Position numbers and translations under genes: made by a program. 64,000 nucleotides of DNA from Leeuwenhoekiella polynyae (GTDB taxonomy: Bacteria > Bacteroidota > Bacteroidia > Flavobacteriales > Flavobacteriaceae). The DNA lies in contig NZ_QOVK01000003.1 of the NCBI RefSeq assembly GCF_004104075.1, positions 248,001 through 312,000 on the forward strand, read 5' to 3'. The notes beneath the pieces are model-generated. The model saw nothing but the letters and a program-made list of their open reading frames with translations. It was not told the origin of the DNA and did not search any database. Shown here one piece after another: positions 56,420 to 61,677 of the stretch (position 1 is its first letter; every line of letters begins with the position of its first letter).

Positions 56420-57520
56420 CTAAGCTTCTTCCATTCTAGAAATTTTCTTCTGATGGTTGATTGACTCCTGGTGGATTGCTTTAAACACACGCAAGATAAA
56501 TTCTTCACTTAAGCTATGCTTTTCACCTTCAAGAATCATTGCTCCTAAAATTTCATTCCATCGCTTAGACTGAAGAATTGCAACGTTATTTTCAGTTTTA
56601 AGTTCACCTATAGTGTCGGCTATTTTCATACGCTTCCCTAAACTTTCAATAAGTTGATGATCTACCACATCGATCTGTGTACGCAGTGTATTCAATTTAT
56701 TGTTGAATTCAGCCGCTGTACCTTCTTCTTTACGAATCTTAAGATCCTTCATAATCTGAACAAGTTGCGAAGGTGTAATTTGCTGCTTCGCATCACTCCA
56801 GGCATTGTCTGGATCGTAATGTGTTTCAACCATAATACCGTCGTAATTTAAATCAAGACCGGTCTGACATAGATCAAAAATGATATCACGACGTCCCGCA
56901 ATATGTGATGGATCTAAAATTAATGGAAGATCTGGAAACTCGTTCTGAAGATCTACAGCAACTTGCCACTCTGGATTATTACGGTAACGAGTCTTCTCAT
57001 ACGTTGAGAATCCTCTGTGAATAACACCTAGATTTTTAACATCCTGAGTATAAAAACGCTCTACAGCTCCTAACCATAATGCTAAATCAGGGTTTACCGG
57101 ATTTTTAATAAGAACTGTTTTATCTGTTCCTTTAAGAGCTTCTGCAATTTCCTGAATATTGAAAGGAGAAACTGTTGTACGGGCACCAATCCAAAGGATA
57201 TCTACATCATGTTTTAAAGCAAGCTCTACGTGATTAGGGTTTGCAACCTCAGTAGTCGTAAGCATCCCAGTCTCTTCTTTAGCCTTCTGAAGCCACTTAA
57301 GACCTAATGCTCCTACACCTTCAAACATTCCCGGACGGGTACGTGGTTTCCAGATACCTGCTCTAAAAACAGTAGCATCTGTGTCTTTTAGCTCGTGAGC
57401 AATTTTCAATACTTGCTCTTCAGTTTCTGCGCTACAAGGACCTGCGATTACAAGCGGGTGATCTAAATTGAAAGCGTCTAACCAGTTTCTAAGTTCTTTC
57501 TTATTTTCCATATTCAACAA
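56420..57520 (-). CDS. Bifunctional DAHP synthase/chorismate mutase
   Basis: This 366-residue fusion joins the first shikimate-pathway step to the first step after chorismate. The N-terminal DAHP synthase (about 5-265) shows VIAGPCSAETEEQ, FRAGIWKPRTRPG, IGARTTVSPF, LIKNPVNPD and LDPSHIAGRR of the KDPG-aldolase-like type. The C-terminal AroQ chorismate mutase (about 275-355) has LRTQIDVVDHQLIESLGKR and an intact helical pattern. The start is probably the second Met (57511). It is last in the aromatic operon, 19 bp after tyrA. Confidence 0.96.
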   Translation of the reverse strand: MLNMENKKELRNWLDAFNLDHPLVIAGPCSAETEEQVLKIAHELKDTDATVFRAGIWKPRTRPGMFEGVGALGLKWLQKAKEETGMLTTTEVANPNHVELALKHDVDILWIGARTTVSPFNIQEIAEALKGTDKTVLIKNPVNPDLALWLGAVERFYTQDVKNLGVIHRGFSTYEKTRYRNNPEWQVAVDLQNEFPDLPLILDPSHIAGRRDIIFDLCQTGLDLNYDGIMVETHYDPDNAWSDAKQQITPSQLVQIMKDLKIRKEEGTAAEFNNKLNTLRTQIDVVDHQLIESLGKRMKIADTIGELKTENNVAILQSKRWNEILGAMILEGEKHSLSEEFILRVFKAIHQESINHQKKISRMEEA

Positions 57521-57539: not shown

Positions 57540-58400
57540 TTACGATAATCCTTTAAGTATTGATTTTATGTGATTTGTATTGTGCATCTCGTTAAAAACC
57601 TCCTCATAATCTTCTGCTTCAAGAACGTTTTTAAAATGCGTTAAATTATTTATGTACTCTGTTAAGCTCTCTAATACGTTAGCTTTATTCTCTTTAAATA
57701 TTGGTGTCCACGTTGCAGGATTACTTTTTGCAAGACGCACTGTAGAGGCAAAACCACTACCCGCCATATCAAAAATATCTTTCTCGTTTTTCTCTTTCTC
57801 AATTACCGTTTTCCCCAGCATAAAGCTACTAATATGCGACAAATGAGATACATAAGCGATGTGTTTATCGTGAGAATGCGGATTCATATATCTAATCTGC
57901 ATGGGTAATGCTTTAAATATCTGCATTGCTTTGTCTAATAAATCTTCTCGGGTTTGTTCTACCTCACATAGAATCATCGTTTTATCTTTAAACAAATTTT
58001 CAATCGCAGCAGATGGCCCGGAAAATTCAGTACCTGCAATGGGATGTGCTGCTAAAAACTGATTGCGTTTAGGGTGATTTCTTACTGCATCACAAACACT
58101 TCCCTTTGTTGAACCTACATCTACTACCAATGCATTTTCTGCAACTGCATCTAAAACTGCAGGTAAAAACAAATTTGCCTGATCTACAGGAATTGACAAA
58201 ATCACAAGATCTGCCTGACTCAAGGCTTCAAAACGAGATGAGTGATCTATCACACCCAAACCTATCGCTTCATCAAGATGGTCTGCATTGCTATCAACAC
58301 CATAGACTGTACTTCCTGGCAAAATGCGTTTTAAATCTCGTGAAAGCGAACCACCTATTAGCCCTATTCCTAAAATGAATATATTTTTAAAATCTTCCAA
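57540..58400 (-). CDS. tyrA: Prephenate dehydrogenase TyrA
   Basis: This 286-residue NAD-dependent enzyme makes 4-hydroxyphenylpyruvate for tyrosine. The Rossmann motif is ILGIGLIGGSLSRDL (about 9-23), then DVGSTKGSV (about 93-101), the substrate-binding HPIAGTEFSG (about 119-128) and SHLSHISSFML (about 188-198). There is no ACT domain. Its start overlaps the aminotransferase gene by 14 bp. Confidence 0.95.
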   Translation of the reverse strand: MEDFKNIFILGIGLIGGSLSRDLKRILPGSTVYGVDSNADHLDEAIGLGVIDHSSRFEALSQADLVILSIPVDQANLFLPAVLDAVAENALVVDVGSTKGSVCDAVRNHPKRNQFLAAHPIAGTEFSGPSAAIENLFKDKTMILCEVEQTREDLLDKAMQIFKALPMQIRYMNPHSHDKHIAYVSHLSHISSFMLGKTVIEKEKNEKDIFDMAGSGFASTVRLAKSNPATWTPIFKENKANVLESLTEYINNLTHFKNVLEAEDYEEVFNEMHNTNHIKSILKGLS

Positions 58401-59535
58401 TGGCTTCTTTGATTTTATCTTCGGTTACACACAGTGAAAAACGAATATATCCTGCTCCCTGAGAGCCAAAAATACTTCCCGGGGTTAAAAACACGCTTTT
58501 ATTTAATAAAATATCATCTATAAATGCTTCTGCATCACCGGCGCCTTCGGGTAATTTTGCCCAGATAAACATTCCGGCTGCATTTTTATCATATGTACAA
58601 CCCAGCAAATCAGCCAGCTTCCACATGTGTTCTCTTCTGTTTTTATAAACCTGATTGAGTTCATTAAACCATTCTTCGCCTTCTTTTAAAACAGCGGCAG
58701 CTCCTTTTTGAATTCCATAGAACATACCACTATCCATATTACTTTTTACAGTTAAAACGGTGTTTATGTATTCTGAAGAACCCACCAACATCCCCACTCT
58801 CCAGCCACTCATATTGAATGATTTGCTCAGAGAATTTAATTCTATAGCTACTTCTTTTGCTCCCGGAATACTTAAAATACTCTGCGGATTTTCATTTAAA
58901 ATGAAACTATATGGGTTATCATTTACTAATAGTATTGAGTTTGCTTTCGCAAAAGCCACAAGGTCTTCAAAATCTTTTGTAGTAGCTTTTGCTCCCGTTG
59001 GCATGTGTGGGTAATTAACCCACATCAACTTCACCTTACTCAGGTCTTTTTTAGACAAAGCTTCATAATCTGGCATCCAGTTATTGGAAGCATCCAGATT
59101 GTAATAAACCGGCTCTGCTTCAACCAGACGTGTTACCGAAGTATATGTTGGGTAACCCGGATTAGGAATCAATACCTCATCATCAGGATTTAAAAAAGCC
59201 ATACTGATATGCATGATTCCTTCTTTTGATCCCATTAAAGGCAGAATTTCGCTCTCAGCATCTAGACGCACACCATAACGCGCTTCATAAAAATCAGCCA
59301 TTGCGTTAGTCAATTCTGGCAAACCTTTGTAACTCTGATACTGATGCGCAGGACCATCTACCAGAGACTTGGTCAATGCATCGATAACATGAGGTGGCGG
59401 CGGTAAATCTGGACTACCTATACCCATGTTGATTATAGGCTTACCTGCTGCTGCAAGTGCTCGCACTTCTTTTAGCTTTCGCGAAAAGTAGTACTCTGAG
59501 GTCTGGTTTAACCGCTTAGCCGATTCTATAATCAT
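58387..59535 (-). CDS. PLP-dependent aminotransferase of the aromatic operon
   Basis: This 382-residue fold-type I aminotransferase has NPGYPTYT, VNYPHMPTGA, the pyridoxal-phosphate lysine in SLSKSFNMSGWRVG (about 235-248) and RFSLCV near the end. By operon context it should make phenylalanine and tyrosine from the keto acids (or prephenate to arogenate). By sequence alone it could be an aspartate- or LL-DAP-type enzyme. It overlaps pheA by 4 bp. Confidence 0.9.
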   Translation of the reverse strand: MIIESAKRLNQTSEYYFSRKLKEVRALAAAGKPIINMGIGSPDLPPPPHVIDALTKSLVDGPAHQYQSYKGLPELTNAMADFYEARYGVRLDAESEILPLMGSKEGIMHISMAFLNPDDEVLIPNPGYPTYTSVTRLVEAEPVYYNLDASNNWMPDYEALSKKDLSKVKLMWVNYPHMPTGAKATTKDFEDLVAFAKANSILLVNDNPYSFILNENPQSILSIPGAKEVAIELNSLSKSFNMSGWRVGMLVGSSEYINTVLTVKSNMDSGMFYGIQKGAAAVLKEGEEWFNELNQVYKNRREHMWKLADLLGCTYDKNAAGMFIWAKLPEGAGDAEAFIDDILLNKSVFLTPGSIFGSQGAGYIRFSLCVTEDKIKEAIGRF

Positions 59536-60356
59536 CCTTTTCTATTTTTATATTCACCCAAAACTTTAAATTCAAGCGCCATTATATTCAACAATTTTTT
59601 TGCTTTCTCGAAGTCTGTATAATTATCAAAAGTAACATCTACAAAAAACGAGTACTTCCACGGTGTCTCAATAACCGGTAAAGACTGAATCTTAGTAAGA
59701 TTTAATCTACAATCACTCATTACATTGAGTACTGCTGCAAGACTTCCCCGTTTGTGGTCTGCCAGAAATTTAACCGAAGCTTTGTCTGGCACCTCTGCCT
59801 CTGTCCTTCCGTTTGTATTCAAAATAAAGAAACGTGTTGAATTCTCTTTAATAGTCTGAATATCTTCAGCGATAACATCTAAACCATAAATCTGTGCGGC
59901 TGTTATTCCGGCAATCGCACCTATCCCTTTAAGATTTCCATCGGCAATACGTTTTGCAGCCCCGGCAGTATCATCATCTTCAACCAGCCTGATATGCTCT
60001 TTATCTTTAAAAAATTCCTTACACTGTAACAAAGCCATAGGGTGAGACCATACTTCTTCAATATCTTCTAAGTGCTGCCCCGGTAAAACCATCAAATTTT
60101 GACTTATACCCAGATAGCGTTCCCCTTCAATATTAAGCTTGTGATTATCAATCAATGCATAGTTAGGGATTATGCTTCCTGCTATAGAATTTTCGATAGC
60201 CATTACTGCATCTGTCGCCTCGCCTTTTATCAGGCAGTTTACTAACTCTTGAAAACTACGGCACGCTATCACCTCCACGTCTTCAGCAAAAAAATCCTGA
60301 GCGACTTTATGGTGAAAAGAACCTTTAATTCCCTGTATGGCTACTTTATGTTTCAA
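59532..60356 (-). CDS. pheA: Prephenate dehydratase PheA with ACT domain
   Basis: This 274-residue enzyme converts prephenate to phenylpyruvate. The catalytic domain (about 1-180) begins KVAIQGIKGSFHHKVAQDFF, has IENSIAGS (about 55-62) and the TRF motif in NSTRFFIL (about 168-175). The ACT domain (about 190-270) has GSLAAVLNVMSDCRLNLTKI and SLPVIETPWKYSFF, the likely phenylalanine feedback site. It is the first structural gene of the operon; a leader peptide and attenuator lie upstream. Confidence 0.95.
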   Translation of the reverse strand: MKHKVAIQGIKGSFHHKVAQDFFAEDVEVIACRSFQELVNCLIKGEATDAVMAIENSIAGSIIPNYALIDNHKLNIEGERYLGISQNLMVLPGQHLEDIEEVWSHPMALLQCKEFFKDKEHIRLVEDDDTAGAAKRIADGNLKGIGAIAGITAAQIYGLDVIAEDIQTIKENSTRFFILNTNGRTEAEVPDKASVKFLADHKRGSLAAVLNVMSDCRLNLTKIQSLPVIETPWKYSFFVDVTFDNYTDFEKAKKLLNIMALEFKVLGEYKNRKG

Positions 60357-60378
60357 TTATCTTTAGTTCAGTTTATAA

Positions 60379-60408
60379 CAAAAAAAATCCCGATTTTTTA
60401 AATCGGGA
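60379..60408 (-). terminator. Attenuator terminator in front of pheA
   Basis: Minus-strand TCCCGATTT (60408-60400) pairs perfectly with AAATCGGGA (60396-60388) across a 3-nt loop, followed by eight T-type bases. The pheA start codon is 23 nt downstream. The 5' arm shares four bases with the antiterminator helix. Confidence 0.9.
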
Positions 60409-60451
60409 CCCTATGATATTGTATTACTACACGATACTCTATAGCGGTCCC
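60388..60451 (-). promoter_or_regulatory. Antiterminator/terminator switch of the aromatic operon
   Basis: RNA segment 60451-60441 (GGGACCGCUAU) can pair with 60414-60405 (AUAGGGUCCC) over 10 bp with one bulged G. This pairing uses UCCC (60408-60405), which the terminator also needs, so the two structures exclude each other. The first segment begins 12 nt after the last Phe codon of the leader peptide, the distance a stalled ribosome would leave free, and is covered when the ribosome reaches the stop codon. This is the classical pheA/trp attenuation logic. Confidence 0.8.
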
Positions 60452-60519
60452 ATCTCTCTCCAGAAGAAAAAGAAATAATAACGGTTAAAAAAGTAAGGTA
60501 CGTAAGACATGTGATTCAT
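60439..60519 (-). CDS. Phe/Tyr-rich leader peptide of the aromatic operon
   Basis: A 26-codon frame (ATG at 60519-60517, TAG at 60441-60439) begins MNHMSYVPYFF and runs through YYFFFFW before a short tail. It holds 6 Phe, 4 Tyr and 1 Trp, 11 aromatic residues in 26. It ends inside the antiterminator segment and stands 81 nt before the pheA start codon. Low charged aromatic tRNA would stall the ribosome and let the operon be read. It is too short to be functional as a protein in any other evident way. Confidence 0.85.
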   Translation of the reverse strand: MNHMSYVPYFFNRYYFFFFWREMGPL

Positions 60520-60783
60520 TAATTATGCTGCTAAAGTACTTAAATAAATAAGAAGAATTTTAAAAGGGGTTGATTTTTACACATTTCAAAAAAAAAGGAT
60601 GGATTATTTGAAGAAAACAAAATAGAACCTCGTATTTAAACTGCTTTGTTAGAAGATATTTTTCAAATAGCTTAATCTGGTGAGTTTATTTTTATATTGA
60701 CCTAATTTTAAGGTTTTGAAAACAGCCGTCTCACTGCTATTTGTTTACTTTTAACTTTTAAAGTTTCCTTATTTTAAGCCAGT
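60520..60783 (-). other. Divergent promoter region between aromatic operon and gldA
   Basis: No gene is visible here. On the minus strand TACTTTAG (60538-60531) is one base off TAnnTTTG and ends 11 nt before the leader peptide ATG, so the leader would be nearly leaderless; the -33 element is unclear. The plus-strand promoter of gldA is not evident. Confidence 0.4.
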
Positions 60784-61677
60784 ATGTCTATAACTGTAGA
60801 GGCCATAACCAAAATCTACGGTGCTCAGAAAGCACTTGACGATTTATCATTTTCGGTCAAAAAAGGTGAAATCACCGGTTTTTTAGGTCCTAATGGAGCT
60901 GGTAAAACCACGATGATGAAAATCTTAACCACCTATCTGAAACAATCATCAGGATCTGCTTTTATAGCTGGTTTTTCTACAGAAAATGAAGCTTTAGAGG
61001 TTCAAAAACGAGTGGGATATCTTGCAGAGAACAATCCGTTATACCCGGAAATGTACATTAAAGAATATCTTAAACTTCACGCTGATCTCAATCACACGTC
61101 AAAAGATCGCATAGCTGAAGTTATCTCTCTTACCGGCTTGCAACCCGAAGTAACTAAAAAGATCAAACAATTAAGCAAAGGCTACAAGCAACGTGTAGGC
61201 CTGGCTGCTGCGCTGATACACGATCCTGAAGTTCTAATTCTTGACGAACCCACAACGGGTCTTGACCCCAATCAACTGAAAGAAATACGCGGGCTCATTA
61301 AGACTATAGGCAAAACCAAAACCGTTTTGCTCTCTACACACATTATGCAAGAGGTTGAAGCTATTTGTGATCGAGTTATCATCATTAATAAAGGGAAGAT
61401 TGTTGCAGACCGGCAACTAAAAGACCTTAAAGCCGGTAGTGAGCAAATCATAAAAGTAGAATTTGATTATCGTGTAGAGGAAGTAGCACTTAAAAATTTA
61501 ACTCACGTTAATTACGTGAATAACACAGAAGGTTTTAGTTATGAAATCAGTTTTGATACGCAAAAAGATATGCGGCCCGCCCTGTTTGATTTTGCACATG
61601 ATAACGGACTAAAAACACTCCAGCTTTCTCGTATAAATACTTCTTTAGAAGAACTTTTTCACCAACTCACCCGCTAA
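60784..61677 (+). CDS. gldA: Gliding motility ABC transporter ATPase GldA
   Basis: This 297-residue ATPase of the GldA-GldF-GldG transporter has Walker A GPNGAGKTT (about 39-47), the Q loop in YLAENNPLYPEMY, the ABC signature QLSKGYKQRVGLAAALIHDPE (about 132-152), Walker B VLILDEPTTGLDP (about 153-165) and the switch His in STHIMQEVE. The C-terminal part (about 220-297) has the GldA-type extension. GldF and GldG are not in the window. Classical gldA mutants of Flavobacterium do not glide. Confidence 0.9.
   Translation: MSITVEAITKIYGAQKALDDLSFSVKKGEITGFLGPNGAGKTTMMKILTTYLKQSSGSAFIAGFSTENEALEVQKRVGYLAENNPLYPEMYIKEYLKLHADLNHTSKDRIAEVISLTGLQPEVTKKIKQLSKGYKQRVGLAAALIHDPEVLILDEPTTGLDPNQLKEIRGLIKTIGKTKTVLLSTHIMQEVEAICDRVIIINKGKIVADRQLKDLKAGSEQIIKVEFDYRVEEVALKNLTHVNYVNNTEGFSYEISFDTQKDMRPALFDFAHDNGLKTLQLSRINTSLEELFHQLTR

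Follow-up and report, generated by a model that had tools for sequence, protein, structure and literature searches.

A predicted leader-peptide attenuator rich in Phe and Tyr codons upstream of the pheA operon of Leeuwenhoekiella polynyae and its relatives

We analysed a window of 64,000 nucleotides of Leeuwenhoekiella polynyae DNA (the whole stretch, to whose positions all coordinates refer) and focused on the region upstream of pheA, where a ribosome-mediated transcription attenuator is predicted. Leader, terminator and operon all lie on the - strand, on which a -7-type promoter element is followed by an aromatic-rich short frame, antiterminator arms and a hairpin with eight T before pheA (Table 1). 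The operon, which continues with an aminotransferase gene, tyrA and a fused DAHP synthase/chorismate mutase (DAHPS/CM) gene, covers both end products, Phe and Tyr; tyrA is its only gene above a curated model cut-off. An earlier note, made from the sequence alone, had given the right order of genes and let the operon start 23 nt after the unit; pheA is called from TTG 60356, which is 22 bases past 60379.

Table 1. Features of the pheA leader and operon, other candidate leaders of the same genome, and relatives with doubled units.
Feature	Position	Strand	Details
Predicted -7 promoter element	60531..60538	-	TACTTTAG, near the flavobacterial sigma-A box TAnnTTTG; from sequence
Leader peptide ORF (open reading frame), longer version	60439..60519	-	26 codons, MNHMSYVPYFFNRYYFFFFWREMGPL, stop TAG 60441-60439
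Leader peptide ORF from conserved start ATG 60510	60439..60510	-	23 codons, MSYVPYFFNRYYFFFFWREMGPL
Control codons	60460..60480	-	seven in a row, Tyr-Tyr-Phe-Phe-Phe-Phe-Trp (YYFFFFW)
Candidate protector hairpin (1:2)	60451..60477	-	codon stretch 60477-60467 against the purines of 60461-60451, with numerous G-U pairs; from leader minimum free energy fold
Segment 2, antiterminator 5' arm	60441..60451	-	GGGACC-g-CTAT; extends over the final codons into the stop, of which it includes the first base
Segment 3, antiterminator 3' arm	60405..60414	-	ATAGGGTCCC; overlaps the terminator 5' arm
Intrinsic terminator	60380..60408	-	9-pair stem TCCCGATTT/AAATCGGGA 60408-60388 (60408-60400, loop 60399-60397, 60396-60388), T-tract 60387-60380; from sequence and covariation
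pheA, prephenate dehydratase, first operon gene	59532..60356	-	best model E 4e-55, 186.9 bits, curated cut-off 219 missed
Pyridoxal phosphate-dependent aminotransferase	58387..59535	-	
tyrA, prephenate dehydrogenase	57540..58400	-	NF006307, 370 bits vs cut-off 295
DAHP (3-deoxy-D-arabino-heptulosonate 7-phosphate) synthase fused to chorismate mutase	56420..57520	-	below curated cut-offs
Own-genome leader, trpE	L181:1319-1366		
Own-genome leader, hisG	L183:1187-1243		
Own-genome leader, ilvD	L184:1107-1160		
Doubled loci, family f5	upstream of pheA		L155-L160, L164, L165, L166, L168, L170, L174
Doubled loci, family f9	upstream of pheA		L124, L125, L135-L138, L152

The description of the frame, antiterminator and terminator in the earlier note proved correct almost base for base. 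Direct reading of the - strand confirmed the 26-codon frame with its 11 aromatic codons (6 Phe, 4 Tyr and 1 Trp), seven of them consecutive. Its first ATG, at 60519, is indeed there, and relatives favour the second: L004 and L005 lack the former and keep the latter, which is present throughout L002-L005, and the leader peptide thus probably starts at ATG 60510 and counts 23 codons, the length of 27 of the 84 leaders that we compiled. Within the 60 nt that precede the leader, 44 of the 57 family-f1 loci have the motif TAnnTT[TA]G (13 are without it), compared with 9.6% of mononucleotide shuffles. Since the flavobacterial -7 box occupies -12 to -5 relative to the transcription start, according to PMC9723704, transcription is predicted to start near 60526, giving a 5' untranslated region of about 16 nt to ATG 60510; predicted lengths of 13-16 nt were obtained for 31 of the 44 loci with the box. 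To call the leader possibly near-leaderless was hence an overstatement, and initiation without a Shine-Dalgarno sequence is described in PMC9723704 as usual in this group.

Both helices could likewise be read directly. The antiterminator has 10 pairs, formed by 60451-60446 (GGGACC) with 60410-60405 (GGTCCC) and by 60444-60441 (CTAT) with 60414-60411 (ATAG), with a one-base bulge at G60445 and 26 bases between the 11-base segment 2 and its complement, segment 3. The 9-bp stem of the terminator is confirmed with its U-tract and is the sole terminator-like site in 60300-60800 (shuffles 0.2, standard deviation 0.5). Antiterminator and terminator are mutually exclusive, as they have the 5' arm of the terminator in common. 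From the last Phe codon (60465-60463) to the arm at 60451 there are 11 nt, one less than the 12 nt first given, and the arm does overlap the stop codon, ending on its first base.

Conservation was followed in several samples, in which a complete unit means an aromatic-rich frame, a terminator and an antiterminator together, frames being selected for richness in Phe, Tyr or Trp. A named set joined the window to 30 relatives from a protein search, among them four Leeuwenhoekiella close to the window. In a phylum sample, pheA was found in 215 of 247 genomes, from which we took the 60 best matches, not counting the window, together with 20 of lower rank selected to represent a spread of families. 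A complete unit precedes pheA in all 31 named loci, in 53 of the 60 best phylum matches, in 29/29 loci of family f9 and in 24/27 of family f5, and in none of 3,340 shuffles (0/2,220 for the named and phylum sets, 0/1,120 for the two families). At least seven aromatic residues in 10 were reached in 31/31 named upstream regions, 50/60 best phylum regions and 0/20 lower-ranked ones, against 0.58%, 0.58% and 0% of their dinucleotide shuffles. An even sample of the class comprised 198 genomes. With E limited to 1e-10, pheA was matched in 52 of them, and 31 of these 52 carry the unit (20/22 examined earlier and 11/30 further ones); the element is therefore widespread but not universal. The genes that the unit would control were compared as well. 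The order pheA-aminotransferase-tyrA is kept in 29 of the 30 named loci (the DNA stops inside pheA in L029, and L027 matches tyrA weakly, at 39% over 97 residues). None of these loci extends to the fourth gene, which was checked in ten distant loci with more DNA (L114-L123): seven have all four genes in order, tyrA is unmatched in L118, and in L122 and L123 the matches are limited to pheA and DAHPS/CM. The sequence of L112 and L113 reaches only the aminotransferase.

What is conserved in the frame is the class of its codons. In the 27 leaders that have 23 codons, 161/162 cells at codons 11-16 encode Phe or Tyr, with TTT/TTC and TAT/TAC both in use and Phe and Tyr exchanged between clades, and codon 10 is looser (21/27). 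We read this pattern as selection on codon class, and not on the RNA alone or on a fixed peptide. The position of the codons is similarly constrained: in 105 nonredundant leaders out of 152 units, the last aromatic codon of the run lies a median of 10 nt from the predicted arm (interquartile range 9-12, range 2-18). The start of the arm relative to the stop codon is loose (interquartile range -20 to 0), and in 76 of the 105 the arm begins before the stop codon is complete. Such narrow codon-to-arm spacing is what stall-dependent release of the arm would require, and it fits the stalled and finished ribosomes that the earlier note had in mind. Drift across genera reveals the parts that matter, namely codon class, arm complementarity and codon-to-arm spacing.

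Arm complementarity was assessed on a MAFFT alignment of 41 of the 57 family-f1 leaders, less than 95% identical, in which the row of the window ends at 60389, so that its last terminator pairs are counted as gaps. The terminator covaries: 94.3% of its cells are paired, dropping to 50-53% on slides by a single column; 6 of its 10 pairs show changes on both sides, in 36 cells against 10.5 in shuffles; and RNAalifold recovers it independently. For the antiterminator, two registers appear on the alignment, which we attribute to one clade ("GAGAC") displaced by a column, and an alignment-free test was chosen for this reason. Arms were exchanged among 58 nonredundant leaders (of 84) in 5,000 permutations. 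The antiterminator passes this swap: arms pair with their own partner at -14.4 kcal/mol on average and with foreign partners at -9.6, while the best of the permutations reaches -10.9 and mononucleotide-shuffled arms -6.4 kcal/mol. The own partner ranks 4 to 5.5 of 58 at median, and not at the top, because segment 3 itself varies little. Since segment 3 is complementary to segment 2 as well as to segment 4, a change in any one of the three requires matching changes in the other two; examples are the shifts from GGGAC/GTCCC to GAGAC/GTCTC in one clade and to GGATT/AATCC in a second. The earlier note had named a lack of conservation of the short frame or of the helices among relatives as evidence against an attenuator; the frame, the aromatic codons, both helices and their spacing are all kept despite sequence drift.

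Taken together, these features very probably constitute an attenuator by which the ribosome controls transcription of the pheA-aminotransferase-tyrA-DAHPS/CM operon, with charged tRNA-Phe and tRNA-Tyr both sensed; the earlier note, too, had suggested that both end products are sensed. Sequence comparison shows the frame, the class to which its codons belong, the two competing helices and the spacing, whereas transcription start, translation, stalling, termination and the response to amino acids are predicted. RNA polymerase would start about 16 nt before the leader ATG, with a ribosome following. If Phe- or Tyr-tRNA were scarce, the ribosome would stall in the run of aromatic codons, its end about 10 nt before segment 2, which would remain free to pair with segment 3; no terminator would form and the operon would be transcribed. 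With both tRNAs charged, the ribosome would reach the stop at the end of segment 2 and cover it, segment 3 would pair with segment 4, and transcription would end at the T-tract before pheA. In a leader left untranslated, the 1:2 hairpin between aromatic codons and purine stretch may also favour termination. Such a protector is suggested by the order of the codons, which strengthens leader self-folding in 31 of 33 family-f1 leaders (mean z -1.54), a count that relatedness inflates.

Several results weigh against this interpretation. The window is one of the two exceptions, its protector hairpin being no stronger than synonymous shuffles (z +0.45), and its single-sequence fold is mildly better than chance (z -2.18, equalled by 3/200 shuffles). 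On the alignment, 70/500 shuffles reach six terminator pairs with changes on both sides; the best antiterminator register has 72.5% of cells paired and the other 59.9%, and 21/500 shuffles match the seven both-side pairs of the best one. The swap, shuffle and sign counts all ignore shared ancestry. As for distribution, the unit is missing from 7 of the 60 best phylum loci (in L057-L059 pheA directly follows another gene), a complete unit was looked for and found in 0 of the 20 lower-ranked loci, and only 11 of the 30 further class genomes carry it.

The alternative that survives best concerns specificity: the leader could sense Phe only and tolerate Tyr codons as substitutes, or it could respond to all aromatic amino acids, Trp among them. 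Phe outnumbers Tyr (505 against 380 residues in the 105 leaders; Phe is the more numerous in 108 of the 152 units and Tyr in 24), the codons nearest the arm in the window read FFFFW, and Trp occurs in 54 of the 152 units. Nevertheless, we consider this unlikely, given that all 152 units, chosen for aromatic richness and not for both residues, contain Phe and Tyr, with at least two Tyr in each, and that the operon holds tyrA. Trp makes up 1.6% of leader residues and is not claimed as a third sensed amino acid. Another reading would turn the leader into an arrest-peptide sensor of the kind exemplified by TnaC, in which the ribosome is stalled by its own nascent aromatic peptide once free Phe or Tyr has bound to it in the exit tunnel. 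Short and strongly aromatic as they are, the peptides would suit it, but they are poorly conserved outside the Phe/Tyr class, with Phe and Tyr interchanging, and a stall caused by a plentiful amino acid would switch a biosynthetic operon on, presumably the wrong sign; we hold this very improbable. A constitutive partial terminator that merely lowers operon expression behind a chance or non-regulatory aromatic frame deserves hardly any credence. In its favour, Phe/Tyr-rich frames are common in AT-rich DNA (3.6-4% of shuffles reach 6 in 10) and folding of the single sequence is just mildly unusual; against it, shuffles never yielded a complete unit, in each species a second helix fits that species' terminator arm, and the codon-to-arm spacing is narrow.

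The predicted Phe/Tyr attenuator is doubled in some relatives. In families f9 and f5, pheA was matched in 29/41 and 27/41 genomes, with one locus kept per genome (L153 left out). Of these loci, 7/29 and 12/27 have two complete units one behind the other, 19 of 56 in total (Table 1); one unit is found in 22 and 12 loci and none in 0 and 3, respectively. Three of the 19 doubled-unit genomes also belong to the set of 60 phylum loci. From the end of the first stem to the second start codon there are 10-50 nt (median 26), and paired units are 57-69% identical to each other. A division of labour, with one unit for Phe and the other for Tyr, was discarded because every unit in the 19 loci carries both. 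Two promoters were also considered; the 10-50-nt gap is short for a promoter between the units, and one overlapping the first unit is possible. An additional aromatic frame is present in L131 and L154, but the terminator that goes with it falls below threshold. In family f9, the single units of L139, L140 and L142 have a peptide and a terminator (AGCGCCACTCG...) like those of the upstream unit in doubled loci, which would fit a loss of the downstream one. One genome (G265) has its pheA match in two neighbouring pieces of one contig (L152 and L153), as from a frameshift or sequencing error, with a doubled attenuator upstream.

On balance, we lean towards regarding the Phe/Tyr attenuator as an old Bacteroidota module that was lost and doubled on several lines. 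Where it is doubled, polymerase would have to pass two Phe/Tyr gates, whose read-through probabilities would multiply and produce a steeper response than one attenuator can. Serial gating by two units of the same specificity is what we infer from their arrangement, and the relatives with the doubled version offer a natural experiment on how two gates of one kind act when placed one after the other.

Loci departing from the common arrangement include five of the six family-f54 loci (L187, L189, L195, L197 and L198, the sixth being L193), where an aromatic leader is lacking and, by eye, a TAnnTTTG box is seen just a few bases upstream of the start of pheA, an arrangement suggestive of a nearly leaderless pheA transcript. 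L204 has a leader and no terminator above threshold. Terminator-like hairpins with T-tracts precede pheA in L162, L199 and L201, again by eye, without a frame that is aromatic-rich by our criterion; they may belong to another sensor or to a leader that the criterion overlooked. In genomes labelled as belonging to the phylum but not to the class of the window, L061, L068, L069 and L079 encode a PheA 43-47% identical to that of the window and have a complete Phe/Tyr unit. For three of their families one other genome each was looked at (L100, L102 and L105), with a more distant pheA and no unit. Lateral transfer of operon and attenuator, or misplaced contigs, are possible explanations for the former four.

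Other leaders were also sought. An Rfam scan of the window at gathering score returned only a tRNA and no leader family. Among the 17 matches with E up to 10 for 60330-60560 there was no Phe_leader, a family which we take to be part of the library, and Trp_leader scored 12.5 bits against a cut-off of 41. A riboswitch or other described RNA was rejected, as all matches in that region are far below their cut-offs (the best, RsaF, 22.8 bits against 60). In the same genome, short frames MKNKTVNTWWWISQQ, MKRTALHHHHFYSRTQAR and MRKQLISVRSIIVIKLF, picked by eye and without a control, lie upstream of trpE, hisG and ilvD; they contain WWW, HHHH and an Ile/Val-rich stretch, respectively, and each is followed by a sequence resembling a hairpin with a T-tract. 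These are likely classic leaders, and the pheA attenuator seems to be one of a set in this genome, in line with PMC9723704. In the literature passages that we covered, no paper states a Phe/Tyr leader in Bacteroidota, which the supplements of PMC9723704 or Lopatovskaya et al. 2010 may do.

Leader-peptide attenuation is textbook matter for enterobacteria. There, the pheL-pheA attenuator opposes an antiterminator to a terminator under a Phe-rich leader that is not known to include Tyr, and is not known to control genes other than pheA. The present element shares with it the Phe-rich leader peptide, the competing helices and the pheA gene downstream, and differs in mixing Phe with Tyr and in heading an operon that also holds tyrA and DAHPS/CM. 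One leader with codons for several amino acids is known from the ilvGMEDA and thrABC attenuators, which resemble ours in this respect and differ in the amino acids and in their enterobacterial initiation. The doubled units of the relatives, which do not concern the window itself, recall the Salmonella mgtCBR leader, where two short ORFs each belong to an attenuator, one sensing ATP and the other proline, with stems unlike intrinsic terminators, as described in PMC3641672; unlike these, the doubled units are both of the Phe/Tyr type, each with its own intrinsic terminator, in series. The closest counterpart comes from an RNA-seq study of Flavobacterium psychrophilum published in 2021, which counts 64 structured 5' transcribed regions (PMC9723704). 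Its authors see strong clues that operons for amino-acid biosynthesis are preceded by leader-peptide attenuators, and the structured 5' element upstream of pheA is among those that they name as shared with other genera of Flavobacteriaceae. That element very probably belongs to the same family as the leader of the window. The flavobacterial example that the earlier note had found notable is thus real, and neither peculiar to the species nor new in kind, since attenuation clues and the pheA 5' element are reported there. The main text of PMC9723704 gives no peptide, codons, helices or amino-acid specificity for pheA, which its Table S7 and appendix may supply, and the words "phenylalanine", "tyrosine" and "aromatic" are absent from the main text. 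What our comparison would add is the reading of Phe and Tyr codons as the sensor, the covarying competing helices, the breadth and limits of the element and, as its more novel part, the doubling in relatives. The 5' element, for which the 2021 study stated no sensor, thereby becomes a testable switch, and a group whose usual translation initiation differs from the Shine-Dalgarno type (PMC9723704) appears to possess a complete-looking attenuator that would read both products of a merged Phe/Tyr operon.
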